The notes under the pieces are model-generated. The model saw nothing but the letters and a program-made list of their open reading frames with translations. It was not told where the DNA came from and did not search any database. Below, one piece after another: positions 17,252 through 31,952 of a DNA stretch of 32,306 bases (within the stretch, counting starts at the first letter, position 1; every line of letters begins with the position of its first letter). The position numbers and the translations under genes were made by a program. Origin of the DNA: Nitrospira sp. (GTDB lineage: Bacteria > Nitrospirota > Nitrospiria > Nitrospirales > Nitrospiraceae); NCBI GenBank assembly GCA_005116965.1, contig SWDG01000006.1, positions 909,259 through 941,564 of the forward strand. Direction: 5' to 3'.

Positions 17252-17279
17252 TTGACATTGATCTGGCCACGATGATAAA
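17252..17279 (+). promoter_or_regulatory. Promoter of zur
   Basis: Consensus -35 TTGACA (17252-17257) and -10-like GATAAA (17274-17279) with a 16-nt spacer. The predicted start lies inside the palindrome at 17280-17297, so a bound repressor would block initiation: autoregulation. Confidence 0.5.
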
Positions 17280-17297
17280 TGCAACTCACTTGCAACT
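17280..17297 (+). promoter_or_regulatory. Candidate Zur operator, zur promoter
   Basis: Palindrome GCAACTCACTTGC (17281-17293), centred on C17287, extending to TGCAA-N5-TTGCA. It agrees at 15 of 18 positions with the site at 30745-30762 (shared pattern TGCAAmTCAyTTGCrACT). It lies directly after the -10 element. Confidence 0.6.
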
Positions 17298-17308
17298 TGG
17301 AAATTCAG

Positions 17309-17725
17309 ATGGCCGAATCAATACTTGATAGTCTGCGAGCCGGCGGGAAGAAACTGACGAAGCCCAGGAAGGCCATTCTGGCCATTCTTGAGCAGAGCTC
17401 GCTGCCGATCACGGTGGCTGAAATCGCTGATCAACTAAAGAAGGCAAGGGCAGCGGTGGATCTGGTTACGGTCTACCGGAATGTGGCGATGCTGCAGGAG
17501 CTTAAATTGGTCAACCCGGTTGGGCTCCATGAAGGGCAGATGCGGTACGAGGTCTGTCATGGTCGTGAACATCACCACCATATTCAATGTCGTGGGTGCG
17601 GCCAGATTGTCGACCTGATGTTGTGTCCGCTCAAGAAGCTGACGGAGTTGGTCGAGCGGAAAACTAAGTTCGCTATCGATGGTCATGTGCTAGAGTTTTT
17701 TGGCTGGTGCCCGCAATGCCGATGA
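17309..17725 (+). CDS. zur: Fur-family metal regulator, probably Zur
   Basis: A DNA-binding repressor of 138 aa. The winged-helix half contains 'LTKPRKAILAILEQS' and the recognition region 'AAVDLVTVYRNVAMLQEL'. The dimerisation/metal half has the His cluster 'GREHHHHIQCRGCGQIVDL' and two CxxC pairs (Cys94/97 and Cys134/137) for structural zinc. Assignment as Zur rather than Fur or PerR is inferred from the gene content downstream: COG0523 GTPases, ZIP, cysteine-free HemB and S18. An ATG at 17279 lies in the promoter/operator, so the start is placed at 17309 (MAESILDS). Its stop overlaps the next gene by ATGATG. Confidence 0.85.
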   Translation: MAESILDSLRAGGKKLTKPRKAILAILEQSSLPITVAEIADQLKKARAAVDLVTVYRNVAMLQELKLVNPVGLHEGQMRYEVCHGREHHHHIQCRGCGQIVDLMLCPLKKLTELVERKTKFAIDGHVLEFFGWCPQCR

Positions 17726-18024
17726 TGCGACTTCTACATACAAGTAGCCGGTGGGCTCTTGTCGCCGGCTATGTGTTGTTGGTGCTGACCCTCCAGCCGT
17801 TATTGCTGGAGCATACCTTCGCAACTGGTACTTCCCACGAACATTCGGCTCAGGATGTCTGCGCCTGGCTGGACCATGCGGCGAGTGTCGGATTGCATTC
17901 AGTGACGCCCCCACCTGTGCTCAGTCCTGTTCTCGTAACGACTGCATGTACGCTTGATCTCATCTTTTCATCGCTCACCCGCTCGTTTGATTCTGTCCGT
18001 GGGCCTCCCTCCTTCGTCTCGTAA
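17722..18024 (+). CDS. Tiny membrane protein, copy 1 of a pair
   Basis: An unrecognised 100-aa protein with one hydrophobic segment ('WALVAGYVLLVLTLQPLLL'), a short His-containing stretch (TSHEHSAQD), the motif 'CAWLDHAASVGLHS', a second mildly hydrophobic part and the ending 'SVRGPPSFVS'. The same pattern recurs in the product of 31644-31952: 'HAWLEWAASSGLSG' and 'QSRGPPALG'. Short proteins ending in R(A/G)PP are known among metal-associated DUF2946-like proteins, but that link is only a resemblance. Start at 17722 or 17725, overlapping the zur stop. It is followed by a 208-nt gap rich in small hairpins. Confidence 0.65.
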   Translation: MMRLLHTSSRWALVAGYVLLVLTLQPLLLEHTFATGTSHEHSAQDVCAWLDHAASVGLHSVTPPPVLSPVLVTTACTLDLIFSSLTRSFDSVRGPPSFVS

Positions 18025-18232: not shown

Positions 18233-19210
18233 ATGGCGACGACGACTGAGATGATAGCTCCAGTCCCGGTGACGGTGCTAACTGGATTTCTGGGGGCGGG
18301 GAAGACGACTCTGCTTAATCGGATTCTGACGACGGAGCATGGGAAGCGGGTTGCGGTGATTGTCAACGAGTTTGGGGAGGTCGGCATCGACAATCAGTTG
18401 GTCATTGGCGCGGACGAAGAGATCTTTGAGATGAACAACGGCTGCATCTGCTGCACTGTGCGCGGTGATTTGATCCGCATCATTGGTAATCTCCTCAAGC
18501 GGAAGGATCGATTCGACTACATGGTAATCGAAACGACCGGGCTGGCCGATCCGGCCCCGGTTGCGCAGACGTTCTTCGTCGATGACGAGATGAAGCGGCG
18601 GTTGTTGCTCGACGGAATCGTCACCGTCGTCGATTCGAAACATATCTGGGAACATCTTGATACGAGTCCGGAAGCCAAAGAGCAAATCGCATTCGCCGAT
18701 GTGATTCTTCTGAACAAAATCGACCTGGTTCCGCCTGGAGAGGTGGACCGATTGGAAGCAAGGATTCGGGCGATCAACGTCATGGCGAAGATTCATCGGA
18801 CGAAGGATGCACAGGTGGAGATCAACCGGCTGTTGAACATCGGAGCGTTCGATCTGGGTCGTAAGTTGGACATCGATCCCAACTTTCTCGGCGAAGATGC
18901 GTATCAGCATGATCCGAGCGTGTTCTCCGTGGCGCTGGTCGAGGATGGAGTGGTCGACGAGGAAAAGGTGAACGACTGGTTCCGGGAAGTACTCAGTACC
19001 ATGGGAACAAAGATCTACCGGATGAAGGGGATTTTGAATGTCGAAGATCGTGACCATCGGTTCGTATTCCAAGGGGTGCACATGTTGTTTGATGGAAAAG
19101 CCGATCGCCAGTGGAAGCCCGGGGAGGTTCGCAATAACCAGTTGGTGTTCATTGGGAAGGATTTGGATCGAGATGCGTTGACGAAGGGATTCCGGTCATG
19201 CCTCGTCTAG
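18233..19210 (+). CDS. COG0523 (CobW/G3E) zinc-handling GTPase, paralogue 1
   Basis: A metal-chaperone GTPase of 325 aa. The G domain has Walker A '[13 protein letters not shown]' (18-30), '[10 protein letters not shown]', the metal-binding CxCC as '[13 protein letters not shown]' (Cys71-Cys74), Walker B/switch '[11 protein letters not shown]' and the guanine motif 'NKID' (161-164). The C-terminal CobW_C domain ends 'GFRSCLV'. Zur-regulated family members (ZagA/YciC, ZigA) allocate scarce zinc to client enzymes. The ATG at 18233 has a very strong ribosome site, AGGAGGAGG (18218-18226), so an upstream TTG at 18185 is rejected. Paralogues lie at 20552 and 22807. The WD40 gene overlaps its last 13 nt. 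Confidence 0.93.
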
Positions 19211-20265
19211 CCAAACGTCAAATGACTGTGACGCTCAGCCCAATTGGGCGAGCGATGCTCGGTGACTATGTCCATCGCGTGGCCTTTGCGTCTGATGGAA
19301 CTAGATTTGCCGCATGCTCTACGTCGGGCCAAGTGGCTGTCTGGGAAGTTGCTTCCCTCAAGCCGGTCTATGAACTCAAGGGGCATCAGCAGTCGGCGTT
19401 AACGCTAGCCTGGCATCCAAAGCGGCAGGAGTTGGCATCGGGGGGGCAGGACGGTCTCGTCCGAATCTGGAATGCGAATACAGGTGAAGAGCGCGCAGCA
19501 CTTCCTATTGGAGGACAAGGTTCGTGGGTCGAGCATCTTGCCTGGTCGCCGGATGGGAAATTTCTGGCTGCGTCAGCGGGGAAACAGCTTCGCATCTGGA
19601 ATATCGACTCTGTGGTGTCCCCTCAACTTGCCGCTGAAGTTCCGGATTATAAGACGACGATTTCAGCCTTGACCTGGATGCCGTGTGGTGACGGTGTCGT
19701 GGCCTCTGCCTATGGCGGGGCCTGGCTATGGAAGATCGGCCAAGAGAAGCCGGTCCGGCCCTTTCCTTATGATGGTGCCCTACTGACGATCGCGGTGAGT
19801 CCGAGCGGGGAATATCTGGCATCAGGAAACCTCGACGGATCGGTCCATCTCTTCCGTACGGACAGCGATCAGAACTGGCATATGTCCGGCTATCCGGTGA
19901 AGGTGACATCAGTGCGATTTGATTATAACGGTCTCAATCTGTTCACTGCCTCCGGTCCGTCACTGGTCGCTTGGAACATGAAGAAATTTGAGGGGACAGG
20001 CGGGCGTCTCTTTAAAGGACATCTGGGATGGATTCAAGAAATCGCCTGCCATCCCAGTCGATCCATCATGGCAACGGTAGGGGAAGACGGTCTGCTCTGT
20101 CTCTGGTCGCCACAGACGACCAAACCGCTGTTGAGTCAGGAAGTGAACCAGGCCGGTGGACTATCGTGCGTGGCCTGGGGTTCCAACGGGCAGTATTTGG
20201 CGACCGGTGCAAGTGACGGGGGCGTGTCATTGTTCTCCGTTCATGGAGTCGAGGATCAAGCATGA
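19198..20265 (+). CDS. WD40 beta-propeller protein
   Basis: A 355-aa cytoplasmic protein made of about seven WD40 blades. Examples are '[25 protein letters not shown]', continuing '[22 protein letters not shown]', then '[21 protein letters not shown]' and '[22 protein letters not shown]', each with the GH...D...W spacing. There is no signal peptide, and no kinase or other fused domain. WD40 propellers are scaffolds with no catalytic site. It overlaps the upstream COG0523 gene by 13 nt and the downstream Cys/His protein by ATGA, so a role as a docking platform between GTPase and client is plausible but inferred. Confidence 0.88.
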
Positions 20266-20555
20266 ATTTGTTCGGCCCAAAGCGCGTGCTGCAACAGGAT
20301 CAGGTCGATCGAATCAAGTCCTGGACTCGTGAAACCTGGAGCCTCGGTGAGGACACCACCATTATGGTGACCGAATTGGAATGTCGGGAGCCCGGTTGCC
20401 CGCCGATCGAAACGGTCATTGCAGTGCTGGAAGGCCCGGGAGTCACGAAGCAGTACAAGCTCCATAAGACGACCGACGAGGTGAGTCGGCATGATGTGGA
20501 AGGTCTGGCCAACGGAGGTGAACCGCATCACCACGCAGAAGGAGTTTCGGGATGA
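20262..20555 (+). CDS. Small conserved-looking protein with Cys pair and His tail
   Basis: A 97-aa protein of unknown function. The central motif 'MVTELECREPGCPPIETVI' has two cysteines in CREPGC, and the C-terminus carries three consecutive His (GGEPHHHAEG). Together they could bind a metal ion. It is joined to its neighbours by 4-nt ATGA overlaps on both sides (WD40 upstream, COG0523 paralogue 2 downstream), so it is made with them. The composition is acidic and soluble with no membrane segment. A small partner or client of the adjacent GTPase is the natural guess. No family name is offered. Confidence 0.7.
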   Translation: MNLFGPKRVLQQDQVDRIKSWTRETWSLGEDTTIMVTELECREPGCPPIETVIAVLEGPGVTKQYKLHKTTDEVSRHDVEGLANGGEPHHHAEGVSG

Positions 20556-21568
20556 AGACGTCGTCGATGTCGTCTGTCTATGTGATCGCCGGTTTCTTGG
20601 GGAGTGGGAAGACGACCCTGCTCAAGCGTGCATTGGCCCATCAGTTAGACCAGGGCATTACACCGGCGGTGTTGATGAATGAGTTTGGGGAGGTCGATGT
20701 CGATGGGTCGTTGTTGCATGAGCATCCACGCTCGAAGGATGTTGAGTTGGAGGCCCTACTGAGCGGCTGTATTTGCTGTGATTTGTCGGGTGAGTCCAGC
20801 GAAAAGGTCGGACATTTGGTGCAGAAGTCTAAGGGCGCTCCGCTCTTCATTGAAACAACTGGTTTGGCGGACACCGGTCAGGTGGTTATGGGGGTTGAGA
20901 AGGCGCTGGCTGATCAGCAGAAACACTCATCCAGAGGCAAGTTGGCCTCCGTGATCGTGATGGTCGATGCGCCTCAGTTCTTGAAGCTTGGCGCGTACTG
21001 GTCCGCAGCCAAGGACCATCTCAAGAGGGCTGATACGGTGGTGTTGAACAAGTTGGATCAGATCGACAAGGAGCAGGTTGAACTGATCGAGCGGCGCATC
21101 AAGGCGGCCAATTCCAAGGCTGTCATCGTGAGAGCCGTGCATGCGGACGTGCAGATCGAACGGATACTCCGTCGGTCGAGAAGTGTTTCTGTAGCCATGA
21201 AGATGGATGGGGAACTCAAGAATTCCGCAGCCGGCTATCAAAGCGGCAGTTTCAAGATCCTGAAGCCGTTCGATCCTATTCGCCTCGAGGCCTGGTTGAA
21301 GCGATTTCAACGATCCGTTATTCGCATGAAGGGTTTTGTGAACGTGCAAGGGCGGGAAGGATTCCAAGAACTTCAATGGGTCATGGGCTCGTTGGCACTG
21401 AGTCCCTACATAGGGGCCAAGCCATCCCAGGCCATGGTCGTGGTCATCGGTCGGCGCGTGCCCTGGCAACGATTTCTCGAAGGCTTAGAGACCTGTCTTG
21501 TGAGGCGGGCCAGCCGGACGAAGCGCCAGACCAAGCGATGGAATCGTGCGACAGGGAGGACAGTATGA
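20552..21568 (+). CDS. COG0523 zinc-handling GTPase, paralogue 2
   Basis: The second COG0523 member, 338 aa. It has Walker A 'GFLGSGKTTLLKR', 'MNEFGEVDVDG', CxCC in 'LSGCICCDLSGE' (Cys73-Cys76), '[13 protein letters not shown]' and 'NKLD' (166-169). The C-terminal domain contains 'RMKGFVNVQGREGFQELQ' and ends in a strongly basic tail (RRASRTKRQTKRWNRATGR), which paralogue 1 lacks and which could contact RNA, the ribosome or an acidic partner. It diverges clearly from paralogue 1 outside the motifs, so this is an old duplication. It is ATGA-coupled to both neighbours. Confidence 0.92.
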   Translation: MKTSSMSSVYVIAGFLGSGKTTLLKRALAHQLDQGITPAVLMNEFGEVDVDGSLLHEHPRSKDVELEALLSGCICCDLSGESSEKVGHLVQKSKGAPLFIETTGLADTGQVVMGVEKALADQQKHSSRGKLASVIVMVDAPQFLKLGAYWSAAKDHLKRADTVVLNKLDQIDKEQVELIERRIKAANSKAVIVRAVHADVQIERILRRSRSVSVAMKMDGELKNSAAGYQSGSFKILKPFDPIRLEAWLKRFQRSVIRMKGFVNVQGREGFQELQWVMGSLALSPYIGAKPSQAMVVVIGRRVPWQRFLEGLETCLVRRASRTKRQTKRWNRATGRTV

Positions 21569-22274: not shown

Positions 22275-22814
22275 ATGATCACACAGGCTGGTGTGTCTGT
22301 AGCGGTGTCGGTACTGACCGTCTCTGATAGTCGAACGCCGGAGACGGATACGAGCGGTGATACTATCGTCGATCGGCTTACTACAGCCGGTCACCGACTT
22401 GCAGACCGTAAGCTCTGCAAGGACGACTATGAGACCATCCGTCGCATCATTGCCGGCTGGGTGGCCGATCCAAAAGTTGAATTCGTCATCGTGACGGGTG
22501 GAACAGGTGTTACCCAACGTGATGTGACGCCTGACGCCGTACGATCGCTCTACACGAAGCCGATTCCGGGGTTTGGAGAACTGTTTCGGTGGTTAAGTTT
22601 CGGTGAGATCGGGACCTCCACGATACAGTCCCGCGCCGATGCCGGCGTCTGTGGAGACACAATCGTGTTTCTCCTTCCCGGTAGCACGGGGGCCTGCCGG
22701 TTAGGGATGGACAAGATCATTCTGCCGCAGCTCGACATCAATCACAAGCCTTGCAATCTGACGGAACTCCTGCCGCGCGTAAAGCAGGAATTTCCACCCC
22801 ACGACGATGACTGA
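22275..22814 (+). CDS. moaB: MoaB/Mog-family molybdopterin adenylyltransferase-like protein
   Basis: A 179-aa protein of the MoaB/MogA fold, which adenylylates molybdopterin before molybdenum insertion. Visible motifs: 'VLTVSDSRTPETDTSGD', 'EFVIVTGGTGVTQRDVTPDA' (TGGTG loop at 74-78), 'GEIGTSTIQSRADAG' and 'LLPGSTGACRLGMDKII'. All the core motifs look intact. It begins 2 nt after the DUF3386-like gene and overlaps COG0523 paralogue 3 by 8 nt. Its place among zinc genes is unexpected: it may be a second MoaB, or cofactor synthesis may need support when zinc is low. Confidence 0.88.
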   Translation: MITQAGVSVAVSVLTVSDSRTPETDTSGDTIVDRLTTAGHRLADRKLCKDDYETIRRIIAGWVADPKVEFVIVTGGTGVTQRDVTPDAVRSLYTKPIPGFGELFRWLSFGEIGTSTIQSRADAGVCGDTIVFLLPGSTGACRLGMDKIILPQLDINHKPCNLTELLPRVKQEFPPHDDD

Positions 22815-23742
22815 AGCAGCCAGCGTGCCCCTGTATGTTCTGGCAGGTCCGCTGGGAGCAGGTAAGACCACCTTGCTGATGCGGCTACTCGCCTTCTGGC
22901 GTGATGCCGGCAAGCACGTCGGCGTTCTGATGAACGAAGCCGGCGCGATCAGTCTGGATGGCGCTCATGCTGGCGCGTCGGCCGCTGCAGTCCGGAACAT
23001 CACCGGAGGCTGTGTCTGTTGCGATGCCCGCGACGGGATTGGAGAGGATCTGGCCGAGCTCGTAGGACAACAACAGGTGGATGTCGTGGTGCTTGAGTGC
23101 TCGGGTATTGCAGACATCGAAGACGTGATCGAGGCTGTCACCGACTCAGTGTGTCTCACGTTGGTACGGTTGGAGAAAGTGATTGCGGTCATCGAACCGA
23201 CCGTTCCGCCTGCTGGGCGTCCCATCGGTTCTCGATATAGGACTCTGGTGCAATATGCGGACGAAGTGATCGTGAACAAGCAAGATCTCTACTCTACTGT
23301 GGAGCAGGAACGATTTCGAACGGCGATCGTTCGTGATAGGGGACATGCCAGGCTGTGGCAGGTGTCGCAGGCTGCCGTGGACCCTGTGTCGTTGCTTCAG
23401 CCGCGCGAACGGCGAACCAAACAGCGAGTCGGAAATGTTGCATTTGGATCGACTCGTGCGCATCCGATGGTGACGACGATTCCTCTGACCGGTCCACTGC
23501 ATCGGGGCCGATTTACTGAGTGGTTCGACCACCTTCCGGTCGGCCTTGATCGGGTCAAAGGGGTCTGTCGGTTTTCCGGTGAGCAGCAGTTGTACGAGAT
23601 TCAGTATGCCTCCCCGGTCACGCGGTGGATCGGCGTGGTTCAGTTTCGACAGGAGCCGGATCCAGCCCTAGTGCTGATCGGCCAAAATTATAATCAGACG
23701 CAGTGTCATCGAATGCTCCAGACCTGTCTGCTGTCAGCCTGA
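22807..23742 (+). CDS. COG0523 GTPase, divergent paralogue 3
   Basis: The third COG0523 protein of the island, 311 aa and the most divergent. Walker A is '[13 protein letters not shown]', and CxCC is kept as 'TGGCVCCDARDG' (Cys69-Cys72). The usual NEFG is 'NEAGAISLDG', the switch ETTGLADP is 'ECSGIADIEDV' (an extra Cys), and the guanine motif is 'NKQD'. The C-terminal domain keeps 'RVKGVCRFSGEQQLYEIQYA'. The extra Cys in the switch region and the changed NExG motif suggest a different metal site or partner from paralogues 1 and 2. Translation is coupled to moaB by an 8-nt overlap, so a link to that protein is possible. Confidence 0.88.
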   Translation: MTEAASVPLYVLAGPLGAGKTTLLMRLLAFWRDAGKHVGVLMNEAGAISLDGAHAGASAAAVRNITGGCVCCDARDGIGEDLAELVGQQQVDVVVLECSGIADIEDVIEAVTDSVCLTLVRLEKVIAVIEPTVPPAGRPIGSRYRTLVQYADEVIVNKQDLYSTVEQERFRTAIVRDRGHARLWQVSQAAVDPVSLLQPRERRTKQRVGNVAFGSTRAHPMVTTIPLTGPLHRGRFTEWFDHLPVGLDRVKGVCRFSGEQQLYEIQYASPVTRWIGVVQFRQEPDPALVLIGQNYNQTQCHRMLQTCLLSA

Positions 23743-23787: not shown

Positions 23788-24084
23788 ATGTCTTCGTTGG
23801 AATCACGCATCACTAAACAGCAGGGCCGTTTTGCTCTCGATTGTTCACTTGGTGAACTCAAGCGCATCTACCAAGCGCTGTTCTCCCAGTTGCGGACCGA
23901 CTCGGAAGCCGACATCGACGAGTCCGACCTGCTCCTTGACCTTCAGATTATCCTTCAACGGGAAGCTCGAGCTGAGGGGGTCGATATCTCCACCCACAGT
24001 GAGTGGTCACGGTTCCTGGGAGAGCCCTCGGTTGCCTCCTGTGAGCAGCGATATGCTGACTATCAAGAGAAGACACTCCAGTGA
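23788..24084 (+). CDS. Small soluble protein of unknown function
   Basis: A 98-aa acidic, mainly helical protein that I do not recognise ('FALDCSLGELKRIYQALFSQL', 'IDESDLLLDLQIILQREA'). It has only two cysteines, no His cluster and no membrane segment. AAAGGA precedes the ATG by 5 nt. It follows the third GTPase by 45 nt and overlaps the ZIP transporter start by 4 nt (GTGA), so it is made with the transporter. A small accessory or regulatory subunit is possible; nothing in the sequence proves it. Confidence 0.65.
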   Translation: MSSLESRITKQQGRFALDCSLGELKRIYQALFSQLRTDSEADIDESDLLLDLQIILQREARAEGVDISTHSEWSRFLGEPSVASCEQRYADYQEKTLQ

Positions 24085-24890
24085 TGACTCTTCCTGCCGA
24101 ATCATCCTGGGGATTTGTTGTTCTCATGGGCCTGCTTGGGAGTCTGGGGGCATTGCTGCCGGCGGCGGTCGTCCTGTTCATCTCGGACGGGTGGCGTCAA
24201 CGTGTGATGCCCTATCTGCTGAGTTACGCCACAGGCACGATGTTGGCCACCGCGATCATCGGGCTCATCCCTGAAGCGTTAGAACATATCTCCATTTACG
24301 AAGTGGGGATCTCGATCTTAGCGGGGCTCGTTCTGTTCTTTGTGCTGGAGTGGACAGTCATTTGGAGACATTCGCACGGGGATCCGTCGGAAGGCCACGT
24401 TGACGATCATGAACATGGGCACGACCATGCCAGCGGGATTGAGAAAAAGACAGGGATGTTGATCCTAATCGGCGATGCGGTTCATAACGTGGCCGACGGC
24501 ATCGCCATCGGTGCGGCTTGTGTGGCGTCCCCAGGACTCGGTCTGGTCACGACGCTCGCGGTGCTGGGGCATGAAGTGCCACAGGAGTTGAGTGATTTTA
24601 CGATTCTCCTGTCGAGTGGCTTTTCTCGCTGGAAAGCGTTCTTCTGGAATACGCTCTCGGGGATGGGGACATTGGTTGGTGTCGTCGCGGCTTACGGAGG
24701 CCTCGCCTATGCGGAGGCAATCGTTCCCTATGCCCTCAGTGTTGCGGCGGCGAGTTTTCTCTACATCGGCTTGGCGGATTTAGTGCCTGGCCTCCATGGG
24801 CGAATGGGGGCAGCGAAGGGGGTTTGGCAGTTTACCATGATGATCGCGGGGATGGTGACGATCGCGCTGTTGACCATGTTGCCGCATTAG
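24081..24890 (+). CDS. ZIP-family metal transporter
   Basis: An inner-membrane divalent-metal importer, likely for zinc, of about 268 aa with eight probable membrane segments. Segment IV has 'GDAVHNVADGIAIG' and segment V 'VLGHEVPQELSD', the paired HNxxDG and HExPQE motifs that form the ZIP metal site. A His-rich cytoplasmic loop (HSHGDPSEGHVDDHEHGHDHASG, split around residues 96-118) lies between segments III and IV, as in many ZIPs. Start GTG 24081 or ATG 24084. It provides the uptake arm of the putative Zur regulon; no ZnuABC-type ABC importer is seen in the window. Confidence 0.92.
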   Translation: MMTLPAESSWGFVVLMGLLGSLGALLPAAVVLFISDGWRQRVMPYLLSYATGTMLATAIIGLIPEALEHISIYEVGISILAGLVLFFVLEWTVIWRHSHGDPSEGHVDDHEHGHDHASGIEKKTGMLILIGDAVHNVADGIAIGAACVASPGLGLVTTLAVLGHEVPQELSDFTILLSSGFSRWKAFFWNTLSGMGTLVGVVAAYGGLAYAEAIVPYALSVAAASFLYIGLADLVPGLHGRMGAAKGVWQFTMMIAGMVTIALLTMLPH

Positions 24891-25898: not shown

Positions 25899-27218
25899 AT
25901 GGTCAATAGACAGAATACAGAGGAGGAGTCCTCCATCCTTGTCCTCGCTGGGGGTTGGGTGCTCGATCCCGGACGGTGGGATGGCGAAGCCGACGTCTGG
26001 ATTCGAAATGGAGTAATCGATGCGGTGGTTTCGCCGGATGTACCTCCGCCGCACGCGGCTGAGTGTCTGGATGTGACGGGGTTGCTGGTGTTGCCGGGCC
26101 TCGTCGATCTCCATGTCCATTTGCGTGAGCCGGGCTTTGAATACAAGGAAACCATTGCGACCGGCACGGCGGCAGCCGTGGCAGGGGGATTCACCTCGGT
26201 GTGCTGCATGCCGAATACGAAGCCGGTCAATGACGAGTCGCCCGTGACGCAGTTGATCAAGATGAAGTCCGGCGAAGCCGGTCATGCCATTGTGTATCCC
26301 ATCGGGGCCATTACGAAGGGATCGGTCGGCCGTGAATTGACCGATTTCCAAGCCTTGAAGGAGGCCGGCTGTGTGGCGGTCTCAGATGACGGCCGACCTG
26401 TGATGGATGATCGACTGATGAGGCAGGCCATGCAGCAGGCCTCGGACCTTGACTTGCCCGTGATCGACCATTGTGAAGATCTTATCCTGGCCGGTTGTGG
26501 ATGTATGAACGAAGGTCCGGTGTCTCGTGTGTTGGGGGTACGGGGCATTCCCAAAGGCGCGGAGTTTCGGATGATCGCTCGGGACATCAGATTGGCCGAA
26601 GCCACAGGTGCGCACCTGCATGTGGCCCATCTCAGCACGGCGGCTGGGGTGGACATGGTGCGTCAGGCGAAAGCCAAGGGATTGTCGGTGACGGCTGAGG
26701 TGTGTCCGCATCATTTTACGCTGACGGATGAAGCGGTTCGTGAACAAGGCGTCAATGCCAAGATGAATCCTCCTTTGCGGAGCGAGCAGGATCGTGCTGC
26801 GTTACTCAAGGGTCTTGCAGACGGGACTATCGATGCTATTGCCACCGACCATGCTCCGCATGCCGAGTATGAAAAACAATGGGGGATGGATCGCGCTCCC
26901 TTCGGGATTGTCGGGCTGGAGACGGCGTTGGCACTGACGCTTCGGCTTGTCGAGACGGGTGTCTTGTCTCTGGAGCAAGCCGTGCGGTGCTTGACCAGCA
27001 AGCCGGCTGGGTTGTTGGGACTGCCGGGCGGTACATTGATGCCCGGTGTGTCGGCTGATATCGCCGTGGTGGATCGTGCCTGTGAATGGGTGGTTGATCC
27101 CGAACAGTTCTACTCGAAAGGACGGAATACGCCGTTTGGCGGGTGGCGGCTGCATGGCCGTGTGATGATGACGTTTGTCGGGGGGCAGATTCGGTATCGA
27201 TGGCCTGATGCCGCGTGA
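25899..27218 (+). CDS. pyrC: Dihydroorotase, class I
   Basis: Amidohydrolase of pyrimidine synthesis that interconverts carbamoyl-aspartate and dihydroorotate. The 439-aa protein has the metal ligands of the Aquifex/Bacillus type: His72 and His74 in 'LHVHLREPG', Asp163/164 in 'AVSDDGRP', His191 in 'IDHCED', His244 in 'HVAHLSTA' and the catalytic Asp317 in 'ATDHAPH'; 'NAKMNPPLR' is also present. An in-frame stop at 25893 fixes the ATG at 25899 as the first possible start, though no good ribosome site is seen. No pyrB or other pyrimidine gene is adjacent. In P. aeruginosa a second dihydroorotase belongs to the Zur regulon, so a low-zinc paralogue is likely here. Confidence 0.92.
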   Translation: MVNRQNTEEESSILVLAGGWVLDPGRWDGEADVWIRNGVIDAVVSPDVPPPHAAECLDVTGLLVLPGLVDLHVHLREPGFEYKETIATGTAAAVAGGFTSVCCMPNTKPVNDESPVTQLIKMKSGEAGHAIVYPIGAITKGSVGRELTDFQALKEAGCVAVSDDGRPVMDDRLMRQAMQQASDLDLPVIDHCEDLILAGCGCMNEGPVSRVLGVRGIPKGAEFRMIARDIRLAEATGAHLHVAHLSTAAGVDMVRQAKAKGLSVTAEVCPHHFTLTDEAVREQGVNAKMNPPLRSEQDRAALLKGLADGTIDAIATDHAPHAEYEKQWGMDRAPFGIVGLETALALTLRLVETGVLSLEQAVRCLTSKPAGLLGLPGGTLMPGVSADIAVVDRACEWVVDPEQFYSKGRNTPFGGWRLHGRVMMTFVGGQIRYRWPDAA

Positions 27219-27221
27219 GCC

Positions 27222-27827
27222 ATGGCCATGCAAACGGTCGCATTTATCCATCAGAAGGGCGGCACTGGGAAAACAACACTGGCGATCGCGACTGCGATGG
27301 CGTTGGCGAGCCAGGGTGCTCGCGTGCTGTTGTTGGATGCGGATGTGCAAGGCACAGCTAGTGAATGGGCGAGCCACTGGGGAGAACGGTTCCGTGTCGT
27401 GGCCCGTTCTCAAATTCAGCCGATCGTGCATGACCAGGTTGCCAGATTTGCGCCGATGTTCGAGTGGATGGTCGTCGATGGGCCACCGACCCTGTCTGAC
27501 ATGACGACAAGCATTCTGCGCGGTGCTGACCGAGTGTTCGTGCCTGTCCGTCCGTCCTTTCCGGACATCTGGGCATTGGAGGGGTTGGCAGCGTTATGCA
27601 CGACTCTCAGGACGACCGGAGCGAATCCGGCCATGCGGGTGTTGTGGAATCAAGTAGTTGAGTGGCCGACATCGGCCATGCGGGCTGCCGTGGAGAGCAA
27701 GGGATTTACGATTTCTCCGGCGGTCATCCGGTGGGAAGCGGTTTGGTCGAATGTGATGGAAGGTCGGTCGCTTCCGACTAGTGCGGTTGACTGTCTCATG
27801 CAGCTGATGAAGGAGCCATGTGAATGA
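27222..27827 (+). CDS. ParA/MinD-like ATPase
   Basis: A 201-aa P-loop ATPase of the ParA/ParF type, which usually positions DNA or protein cargo. It has the deviant Walker A 'HQKGGTGKTTLAIATA' with the signature lysine, Walker A' 'VLLLDADVQGTASEW', and Walker B 'WMVVDGPPTLSD'. No ParB-like partner or parS-like repeat is nearby. It starts 3 nt after pyrC and is ATGA-coupled to hemB, so it is expressed with zinc-sparing enzymes. Its cargo is unknown; a role in locating one of the island proteins is speculation. Confidence 0.85.
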   Translation: MAMQTVAFIHQKGGTGKTTLAIATAMALASQGARVLLLDADVQGTASEWASHWGERFRVVARSQIQPIVHDQVARFAPMFEWMVVDGPPTLSDMTTSILRGADRVFVPVRPSFPDIWALEGLAALCTTLRTTGANPAMRVLWNQVVEWPTSAMRAAVESKGFTISPAVIRWEAVWSNVMEGRSLPTSAVDCLMQLMKEPCE

Positions 27828-28849
27828 GCCTCCATCCGATTCTGGCGTCACGACATGAATCGTCCCCACTCCATCACACACGTGCGTCGTTTCGGGCGAG
27901 ACGATCGTCCGGTAGGCTCGCTCCACCGCATCTGATATGGCCTCTGTTTGTGCAAGAGGGAGTCGATCAGATGACGCCGATCGCCTCCATGCCGGGCTGC
28001 GCACGGGTCTCGGTCGACCGGGTGATCGAGCAGGTTGCGGAAGCTGCTTGCGCCGGCCTTGCTGGAATTGCGCTGTTTCCGGTCGTACCGGAACACCTCA
28101 AGGACCCACGAGGACAAGAGAGTTGCAATCGGGATGGGCTGATGTCGAGGGCCATTCGCGCCATAAAAGCCGCTGCGCCGGATCTGTTAATCCTCAGCGA
28201 CGTGGCGCTCGATCCCTATTCATCGGATGGGCATGACGGCGTAGTGATCAACGGCGAGATCAACAACGATACGACGCTTCCGTTGTTGGCAGAGATGGCC
28301 GTCGTCCAAGCACAAGCTGGCGCCGATCTGGTGGCTCCCTCAGACATGATGGATGGGCGGGTTGATGTGATCCGTCGTGCGTTGAATGGGGCCGGTTATC
28401 CACACGTCGGCATCTGCAGCTATGCCGTGAAGTATGCCTCGGCATTTTATGGACCGTTTCGCGAAGCCTTGGAGAGCGCGCCGCGGATCGGTGATAAACG
28501 GACCTATCAGATGGACCCAGGAAATCATCGAGAAGCTCTGCGGGAAATCAGGCTCGATGAAGCAGAGGGTGCTGATTGGCTGATGGTGAAGCCCGGTTTG
28601 CCGTACTTGGATATCGTACGTCTGGTGCGGGCTCATTCGGCGCTTCCCGTTGCGGTATACCACGTGAGTGGGGAATACGCCATGCTCAAAGCGGCAGCGG
28701 TCGCCGGTGCATTCAGATACGAAGAGGCCTTACTGGAATCGCTCACCTCCATGCGACGAGCCGGCGCCGATCTGATTGTCACATACGGCGCACTCGATGC
28801 TGCGAGGTTGCTGGCTTCTGCTCCACCTATCGTCGAACCGATGAGGTAG
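27824..28849 (+). CDS. hemB: Zinc-independent delta-aminolevulinic acid dehydratase
   Basis: Porphobilinogen synthase (341 aa), the second common step of tetrapyrrole synthesis. Schiff-base lysines are in 'SYAVKYASAFYGPF' (Lys203) and 'MVKPGLPYLD' (Lys256). The active-site zinc cysteines of E. coli-type HemB (CxC...C) are replaced: the segment reads 'DVALDPYSSDGHDG', with Ala128, Asp130 and Asp138. This is the Pseudomonas-type pattern that needs Mg rather than Zn at the active site. 'APSDMMDGRV' is also of the non-zinc type. In a low-zinc operon this enzyme would keep haem, sirohaem and cobalamin synthesis running. ATGA overlap with the ParA-like gene. Confidence 0.93.
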   Translation: MSLHPILASRHESSPLHHTRASFRARRSSGRLAPPHLIWPLFVQEGVDQMTPIASMPGCARVSVDRVIEQVAEAACAGLAGIALFPVVPEHLKDPRGQESCNRDGLMSRAIRAIKAAAPDLLILSDVALDPYSSDGHDGVVINGEINNDTTLPLLAEMAVVQAQAGADLVAPSDMMDGRVDVIRRALNGAGYPHVGICSYAVKYASAFYGPFREALESAPRIGDKRTYQMDPGNHREALREIRLDEAEGADWLMVKPGLPYLDIVRLVRAHSALPVAVYHVSGEYAMLKAAAVAGAFRYEEALLESLTSMRRAGADLIVTYGALDAARLLASAPPIVEPMR

Positions 28850-30700: not shown

Positions 30701-30722
30701 GGCTTGCAACTGTCTGCAAGCC
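30701..30722 (+). other. Perfect inverted repeat at the -35 region of the next promoter
   Basis: Arms GGCTTGCA (30701-30708) and TGCAAGCC (30715-30722) with a 6-nt loop, 11 nt after the M23 stop. No T-run follows, so a terminator role is doubtful. The inner TTGCAACTGTCTGCAA resembles the operator half-sites nearby, so it may be an extra repressor site. Confidence 0.5.
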
Positions 30723-30732
30723 AGGGTATTAT
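30704..30732 (+). promoter_or_regulatory. Candidate promoter of the PF02552-like operon
   Basis: -35 TTGCAA (30704-30709) and -10 TATTAT (30727-30732) with a 17-nt spacer. The predicted start is near 30739, between overlapping palindromes. Confidence 0.45.
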
Positions 30733-30762
30733 GCAAATCATAATTGCAAATCATTTGCGACT
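30728..30762 (+). promoter_or_regulatory. Candidate Zur operator region, PF02552-like gene
   Basis: The core GCAAATCATTTGC (30746-30758) is a perfect 13-bp palindrome centred on C30752, and matches the zur-promoter site (TGCAAmTCAyTTGCrACT). Upstream, ATTATG-N5-CATAAT (30728-30744) is another palindrome, and GCAAATCAT occurs twice in direct orientation, 13 nt apart (30733 and 30746). This could seat two repressor dimers. Confidence 0.6.
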
Positions 30763-30785: not shown

Positions 30786-31400
30786 ATGAGATACGAAGTT
30801 CGTCCTGGTCCTGAGCACTTTTTGCCGCCGGCAGCGGCCAGCATGGGCATTCGATTGCCGAGTCCAGGCGAAGCGATCGTGCATGGGTATATCGTGCCCG
30901 AAGAGCAGGCGATGGAGGAGGCGGCCCGACGACTTATGAGCGCCAAGGTGCCGACAATCTTTCCGGGGCCGCTGGTGTTATGGGCTTGGACGCCCACGGC
31001 TCAGAAAAAGGCCAAAGCGATTCGCCATCTCTTCAATGTATTGAAAGAGAACGTGGGGCCGAATCAGAAACCGATGTTGATTCCGATGCCGGACTACCGG
31101 CCGAAGTATCCGAAGATCAATCCCGAGGTTGAGATCAATCCGAACCATCCGAACTTAACGATCTGGCACAACCGGATCGATACATGTCTCTTCATCGGCG
31201 TCCATTGTCATCAAGCCAATCTGACGCTGAAAATCGTGCGTGGCGGGACGAATTGTTACACGATGGCGATGTGTGCACAGGCCGGGCATGAGGATGCGAT
31301 GCTGTCCTTCCGCGATATTACGCCGGATCACATCATGCGCTTGGCGGATAAGCTTCGTGAATTGAAGGGGACCGTGTCAGGTCCGTCGATCAATCAATAG
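30786..31400 (+). CDS. PF02552-like (CODH/ACS epsilon-type) family protein
   Basis: A 204-aa protein resembling the family named 'CO dehydrogenase beta / acetyl-CoA synthase epsilon subunit'. That fold is a DHS-like nucleotide-binding domain. Visible parts: 'AARRLMSAKVPTIFPGPLVLW' (like the 'PLLVVGP' segment of CdhB), 'IDTCLFIGVHCHQANLTLKI', and a Cys/His-rich 'GGTNCYTMAMCAQAGHEDA'. No catalytic CODH subunit is in the window, so it is not evidence for CO metabolism. Similar proteins are annotated in Nitrospira and may serve 2-oxoacid:ferredoxin oxidoreductases (recollection, unverified). A ribosome site GGAGA at 30771 precedes the ATG. Its promoter has a zur-like operator. Confidence 0.6.
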   Translation: MRYEVRPGPEHFLPPAAASMGIRLPSPGEAIVHGYIVPEEQAMEEAARRLMSAKVPTIFPGPLVLWAWTPTAQKKAKAIRHLFNVLKENVGPNQKPMLIPMPDYRPKYPKINPEVEINPNHPNLTIWHNRIDTCLFIGVHCHQANLTLKIVRGGTNCYTMAMCAQAGHEDAMLSFRDITPDHIMRLADKLRELKGTVSGPSINQ

Positions 31401-31408
31401 GAGTCGAG

Positions 31409-31627
31409 ATGTCTGAGCGTTCGACACCACCATCCGGCTTTATGGCGTTCCTTCCCAAGGAGTACCAAGGAGAGTTTTCGCGAGATTGGATCATGGGGCT
31501 ATCGCCGTTCTATGACCAGACCTGTGCTCAGTGTTTCACGGTTCAACAGGGGAAGTGGGTCGGCTTAGGATCACAAGAATTCGACGAGAGTGCGCTGAAG
31601 TGTGAGGCGCGCTATGGATTGGTGTAG
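31409..31627 (+). CDS. Small cysteine-containing protein of unknown function
   Basis: A 72-aa protein with no recognised family. Sequence features: 'FMAFLPKEYQGEFSRDWIM', then 'DQTCAQCFTVQQGKWVGLG' with a CxxC-spaced pair and a third Cys in 'ALKCEARYG'. It could bind a metal or be a small redox subunit. AGGAG precedes the ATG and it begins 8 nt after the PF02552-like gene, so the two proteins are likely partners. The three Cys alone are too few to define a zinc ribbon. Confidence 0.65.
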   Translation: MSERSTPPSGFMAFLPKEYQGEFSRDWIMGLSPFYDQTCAQCFTVQQGKWVGLGSQEFDESALKCEARYGLV

Positions 31628-31643: not shown

Positions 31644-31952
31644 ATGAAGGGCCAATTGACTCGAGTGATGTTCATCGCCGCCGTCACGATGCTGTATGTG
31701 TTAGTGGCCCTGCCCCTGCCCTATCTCCTCATCGACCACTACTCCGCGATACAAGCAGGCGATACGAGTCACTCCGATGTCGACATCCATGCGTGGTTGG
31801 AGTGGGCCGCCAGTTCCGGGCTGTCTGGGACGGTGCCTGTCCTGCCGTTTGTGTTGGTCCCGTCACGTTTAGTAGCAATTTCATCGCCGCAAATCTTCTC
31901 GGTTGTGCTGGATTCCGCCCTGCAGTCTCGTGGTCCACCTGCTCTCGGTTGA
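31644..31952 (+). CDS. Tiny membrane protein, copy 2 of a pair
   Basis: A 102-aa protein with a hydrophobic N-terminal segment ('MFIAAVTMLYVLVALPLPYLL'), a polar stretch with His/Asp (GDTSHSDVDIH), the motif 'AWLEWAASSGLSGTVP', a second hydrophobic segment ('LPFVLVPSRLVAI') and the end 'LQSRGPPALG'. It matches the protein at 17722-18024 in order and motifs (AWL(D/E)xAAS.GL, S.RGPP), so they are paralogues at the two ends of the zinc island. The frame also opens at 31602, overlapping the previous gene, but ATG 31644 gives the better N-terminus. The 145 nt that follow hold no gene that I can see. Confidence 0.65.
   Translation: MKGQLTRVMFIAAVTMLYVLVALPLPYLLIDHYSAIQAGDTSHSDVDIHAWLEWAASSGLSGTVPVLPFVLVPSRLVAISSPQIFSVVLDSALQSRGPPALG

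Follow-up and report, generated by a model that had tools for sequence, protein, structure and literature searches.

A conserved palindrome is the candidate operator of a Zur-type regulator at two zinc-related operons in Nitrospira

Introduction

The Zur box of Bacillus subtilis is a 7-1-7 inverted repeat. For Streptomyces and other actinobacteria, the consensus of the Zur box is TGAAAATGATTTTCA (PMC2823685, PMC5472717). Zur regulons typically include zinc-free copies of ribosomal proteins as well as COG0523 proteins (PMC6103462, PMC2770081), and the ligands of the sensory site already vary among known Zur proteins (PMC6103462). In the literature searched, we found no paper on a Zur protein or a Zur regulon of Nitrospira. 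Here we analyze a window of 32,306 nucleotides, by which we mean the whole stretch of DNA examined, from a Nitrospira genome. A palindrome recurs in this window at two promoters, and behind it sit genes for zinc uptake and zinc sparing: a ZIP transporter, G3E GTPases, zinc-free S18 (joined in relatives by zinc-free S14 and L31B), and a HemB without zinc cysteines. We propose, with a probability of roughly 0.87, that this palindrome serves as operator for the Fur-family protein encoded at 17309-17725, which would act on both operons as a zinc-sensing repressor of the Zur type. The analysis provides a conservation-backed candidate operator for nitrite oxidizers that are central to their environments.

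Results

A sequence-only reading of the window had claimed that TGCAACTCACTTGCAACT at 17280-17297 and TGCAAATCATTTGCGACT at 30745-30762 agree at 15 of 18 positions around a common palindromic centre. Both sequences are found at these coordinates, with three of the 18 positions differing, and both lie, as that reading also held, at promoters; their -35 and -10 elements can be read (Table 1). It had proposed a genome-wide scan with the pattern TGCAAmTCAyTTGCrACT, and in our pattern searches of the genome (3.73 Mb in 27 contigs) the motif is not scattered: at zero to two mismatches, the two operators are the only places found, both at promoters. Within the window they are the only matches without a mismatch (0.17 expected at up to three mismatches), and the one remaining match is operator 2 on the opposite strand; the earlier reading had noticed no third good match in the window. 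At three mismatches, the genome contains 12 other places, one of which is again operator 2 on the opposite strand; a reversed control pattern gave four. Similarity alone is therefore no proof of a link, and the pairwise match of 15 in 18 is by itself weak genome-wide evidence for one. The exact core TGCAA-N5-TTGCA occurs once in the whole genome, at zur. With up to one change it occurs at three places in the window, namely 17280, 30745, and 12183, the last of which is intragenic; in the source genome, operator 2 has one imperfect half-site base. The three-mismatch matches across the genome and several single-mismatch matches in other genomes were set aside as background-like, those inspected being intragenic or beside unrelated genes.

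The evidence for a functional link comes instead from orthologous promoters. Of the 79 genomes examined in the genus, 14 encode a relative of the regulator with at least 69% identity, and the named matches are almost all from Nitrospira, N. moscoviensis included. In all 14 of these orthologs, the core lies 27 to 30 bases 5' of the start codon, exact in 11 and with one change in three. We searched the order for further orthologs with an alignment of the regulator and obtained them from the remaining genera of that family and from a second family at ≈55% identity. With at most one change, the core is present in 19 of 19 upstream regions from the other genera and in 35 of 35 readable upstream regions from the second family; one further upstream region was masked, and one divergent paralog lacks the box. 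Across the order, TGCAA-N5-TTGCA thus precedes the regulator in every readable relative tested (68/68; 56 exact, 12 with one change), which bears out the comparison with relatives that had been suggested. Shuffled upstream regions contained at most two cores per group, and the other Fur paralog of the genus showed no TGCAA-N5-TTGCA box at the 17 loci checked.

The 56 exact boxes carry 33 different spacers, from which it follows that the half-sites, and not the whole stretch, are under constraint. The motif as originally drawn holds as a palindrome but not as an 18-mer: the conserved unit is the 15-bp core, a 7-1-7 palindrome with a 1-bp centre that overlaps or adjoins promoter elements. We link the two operators functionally because orthologous promoters conserve the box, not because the pair is similar. 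A chance resemblance between them could appeal to the 12 further genome matches at three mismatches, but the presence of the box in all 68 orthologous promoters and in six further second-operon promoters leaves that explanation with next to no probability, and on this conservation we rejected a chance pairing.

Table 1. Coordinates of the features in the window
Feature	Coordinates	Strand	Evidence or remarks
zur operon promoter	17252..17281	+	-35 TTGACA 17252-17257; extended -10 TGa-TAAATG 17273-17281
Operator 1, TGCAACTCACTTGCA	17280..17294	+	15-bp core of the 17280-17297 element; kept 5' of all readable orthologs (68/68)
zur, Fur-family regulator of 138 aa; position points to autoregulation	17309..17725	+	Pfam FUR, 93.7 bits
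sHis1, small membrane or exported-looking protein, paralog of sHis2 (41% over 86 aa)	17722..18024	+	
G3E/COG0523 GTPase (YciC/ZigA-like)	18233..19210	+	Pfam cobW and CobW_C; NCBIfam
Second G3E/COG0523 GTPase	20552..21568	+	Pfam
Third G3E/COG0523 GTPase	22807..23742	+	Pfam
ZIP-family metal transporter	24081..24890	+	Pfam Zip, 123 bits
PyrC paralog	25899..27218	+	The genome has a further copy (60% identical)
HemB paralog without zinc cysteines	27824..28849	+	Island copy DVALDPYSSDGHDG, main copy DVCIDEYTDHGHCG
M23 peptidase, last gene 5' of operator 2 in the source genome	29718..30689	+	
Second operon promoter	30704..30732	+	-35 TTGCAA 30704-30709; 17 bp; -10 TATTAT 30727-30732
Operator 2, TGCAAATCATTTGCG	30745..30759	+	One change relative to a perfect palindrome; core intact at the same place in six relatives
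PF02552 protein, third genomic copy, behind operator 2	30786..31400	+	
72-aa protein with CxxC	31409..31627	+	No NCBIfam match; conserved in the island
sHis2, paralog of sHis1	31644..31952	+	No Pfam match
bS18 paralog without CxxC...C zinc ligands, cut by the contig end	32098..32306	+	TIGR00165, 75.8 bits

The position of the box relative to the promoters is also retained. The zur promoters of Nitrospira and of other genera in its family follow a strict TTGACA...TGnTAAATG pattern, with the box overlapping or adjoining the -10 element; TTGAC(A) and the extended -10 TGnTAAATG are invariant or nearly so among 21 distinct upstream regions of zur in that family. The final two bases of the zur -10 are the first two bases of the operator. 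Operator 2 lies 12 bases downstream of the second-operon -10, and the same spacing of -35, -10, 12 nucleotides, and box can be read in relatives. Six further Nitrospira have the operator-2 box at this promoter position, four with the PF02552 gene (G007, G010, G028, and G029) and two without it (G048 and G049); in G067 and G017 the second gene set, or part of it, follows the first and has no box of its own. Since the palindrome overlaps promoter elements that are themselves conserved, it might be read as a promoter or RNA element, or as the site of another regulator, tied to zur by position only. Such a reading is very unlikely in our view: the symmetric half-sites are kept while the 5-bp spacer varies, the palindrome follows the regulator across two families even where the island is absent, and it recurs at a second promoter at a different distance from the -10. 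The start of zur given earlier, 17309, is correct. A longer ORF from 17279, which would make the motif intragenic, was rejected, as its N terminus is not conserved in relatives.

Two further sequence features lie near the second promoter. Within 30730-30759 (TATGCAAATCATAATTGCAAATCATTTGCG), an extra TGCAAATCAT half-site forms a direct repeat just 5' of operator 2 and could let two dimers bind. At 30701-30722, just after the M23 gene, the inverted repeat GGCTTGCA-ACTGTC-TGCAAGCC overlaps the -35 of the second promoter and may be the terminator stem of the first operon.

The first operon, or zur island, encodes a DHH protein in addition to the genes of Table 1. The order of most of its genes is kept across the island genomes, and in nearly all of them sHis1 adjoins zur. 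A gene for a WD40 beta-propeller (19198-20265) lies within this zinc operon and keeps its place in the island genomes. sHis1 and sHis2 contain His residues, belong to no Pfam family, and occur one per operon near the operator; they are possible zinc-related envelope proteins. The main S18 copy has the motif CRFC, and the S18 paralog behind operator 2 is cysteine-free as far as the window reaches. The second operon of relatives continues with zinc-free S14, type-B L31 (L31B), and four more G3E GTPases; a search for this continuation in the source genome through zinc-free S14 did not find it, and the contig ends with the window. Zinc-free S14 is present in five of 79 genomes, four of which have zur, and the fifth, which is incomplete, has the second operon and the box.

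A duplicated subunit of 2-oxoacid:ferredoxin oxidoreductase is an unexpected member of the target set. Of the other two PF02552 copies in the genome, one (78% identical) is located on contig C1 at the head of a pyruvate/2-oxoacid:ferredoxin oxidoreductase operon, and one (54% identical) lies inside a second 2-oxoacid:ferredoxin oxidoreductase operon. The copy behind operator 2 stands alone, with no other oxidoreductase subunits. It retains metal-binding-looking residues (HCH and several Cys), so it does not qualify as a simple zinc-free substitute.

The zur product has the fold and sequence of the Fur family by Pfam FUR, and its PDB relatives by sequence include ScZur and MtZur. A structural model of the protein also matches Fur-family PDB structures; its confidence is moderate (pLDDT only 74) and the metal-site region is poor, and it was hence not used for ligand geometry. 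Among 19 orthologs, the structural Cys4 zinc site (C94, C97, C134, and C137) is invariant, as are H88-H91, D102, C106, and H126, which might form the sensory site. C83 of the window protein, which aligns with the sensory cysteines C79 of ScZur and C88 of EcZur, is a Cys in only three of the 19, with Arg or Val in the other 16. The sensory site of this clade may thus be differently built, and, given that the sensory Cys varies among orthologs, zinc specificity is read from the content of the regulon and not from the ligand set. With the NCBIfam equivalog model of E. coli Zur (PRK11639), the product scores 31.7 bits against a cut-off of 167 and so is not an E. coli-type Zur; it scores higher with the Fur and PerR models, below their cut-offs as well. 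In L265, L266, and L267 of the second family, the zur ortholog has its box, but downstream of it an overlapping gene for a MerC-family membrane protein takes the place of the zinc island.

The model scores, the variable sensory Cys, and the MerC-like neighbor in the second family count against the zinc reading, together with the imperfect operator 2. The first three would fit a box that is the operator of the zur product with another metal or cue as the signal (iron, manganese, nickel, or peroxide), the models placing the protein nearer to Fur and PerR than to the Zur of E. coli. The regulated set, however, is one of zinc sparing, and the genome encodes a separate Fur paralog with a better FUR-model score than the zur product, which makes another signal improbable. 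We favor the Zur-type assignment because both operons hold zinc-specific genes. Overall, the order-wide conservation of the box and the zinc-type content of the two operons support the candidate Zur operator that the sequence-only reading had put forward.

Discussion

We infer zinc dependence, binding, and repression by the 17309-17725 product from the locus, and the following mechanism is a proposal on that basis. When zinc is sufficient, a metal-bound dimer would occupy TGCAA-N5-TTGCA at both operons, overlapping the -10/start region at the operon that encodes it and sitting just 3' of the -10 of the second. To judge by the positions of the operators, RNA polymerase would be blocked at both, and both operons would be silent. 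At low zinc, the repressor would leave the operators, and the released operons would provide the ZIP importer, several G3E metallochaperone GTPases, zinc-free S18, and zinc-free HemB; relatives would make zinc-free S14 and L31B too. The spare PF02552 subunit of 2-oxoacid:ferredoxin oxidoreductase would also be made.

More speculatively, and with rather less than even odds, the order may harbor a Zur-like clade that has a sensory site without the canonical cysteine (perhaps using the invariant Cys106) together with a half-site of its own, TGCAA, and in which zinc starvation induces a duplicate PF02552 subunit. If true, this induction would tie zinc supply to the CO2-fixing 2-oxoacid:ferredoxin oxidoreductase and to carbon fixation in nitrite oxidizers. 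The probable zinc response gains the PF02552 copy, the 72-aa CxxC protein, two small His-containing proteins, and the M23 peptidase, and the 15-bp motif allows genes of zinc limitation to be predicted across the order.

The motif had been described as different from the Zur boxes of E. coli and Bacillus. This is accurate for its sequence but not in the sense of a foreign element, since the 7-1-7 layout is established in Gram-positive Zur boxes. The Bacillus subtilis system shares the 7-1-7 layout and the targeting of a G3E GTPase (yciC) and zinc-free ribosomal proteins, whereas the half-sites of its box differ in sequence from those of Nitrospira. E. coli Zur is likewise a Fur-family protein with a structural Cys4 zinc site and an L31-type paralog among its targets, but its znuABC box is unlike TGCAA-N5-TTGCA, and it binds as a dimer of dimers (PMC4219657, PMC6103462). 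The gene content resembles the Zur/COG0523 clusters of beta- and gamma-proteobacteria, which combine zur, several COG0523 GTPases, and second copies of HemB and PyrC (PMC2770081); that paper's list of nine enzyme families does not include the duplicated PF02552 oxidoreductase subunit, and its text does not name Nitrospira.

The Streptomyces Zur box is likewise a 15-bp 7-1-7 palindrome. With TGAAAATGATTTTCA, the perfect form TGCAAATCATTTGCA, which occurs in relatives, shares 12 of 15 positions and operator 2 shares 11 (PMC2823685), the half-sites differing by a symmetric C/G in place of A/T. The Nitrospira system also departs from that of Streptomyces in that the Cys79 sensory position is not conserved and that the zur cluster holds ZIP and not znuABC. 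ScZur aligns to the zur product over 123 residues without gaps, and the targets of Streptomyces Zur similarly include zinc-free ribosomal protein paralogs and COG0523.
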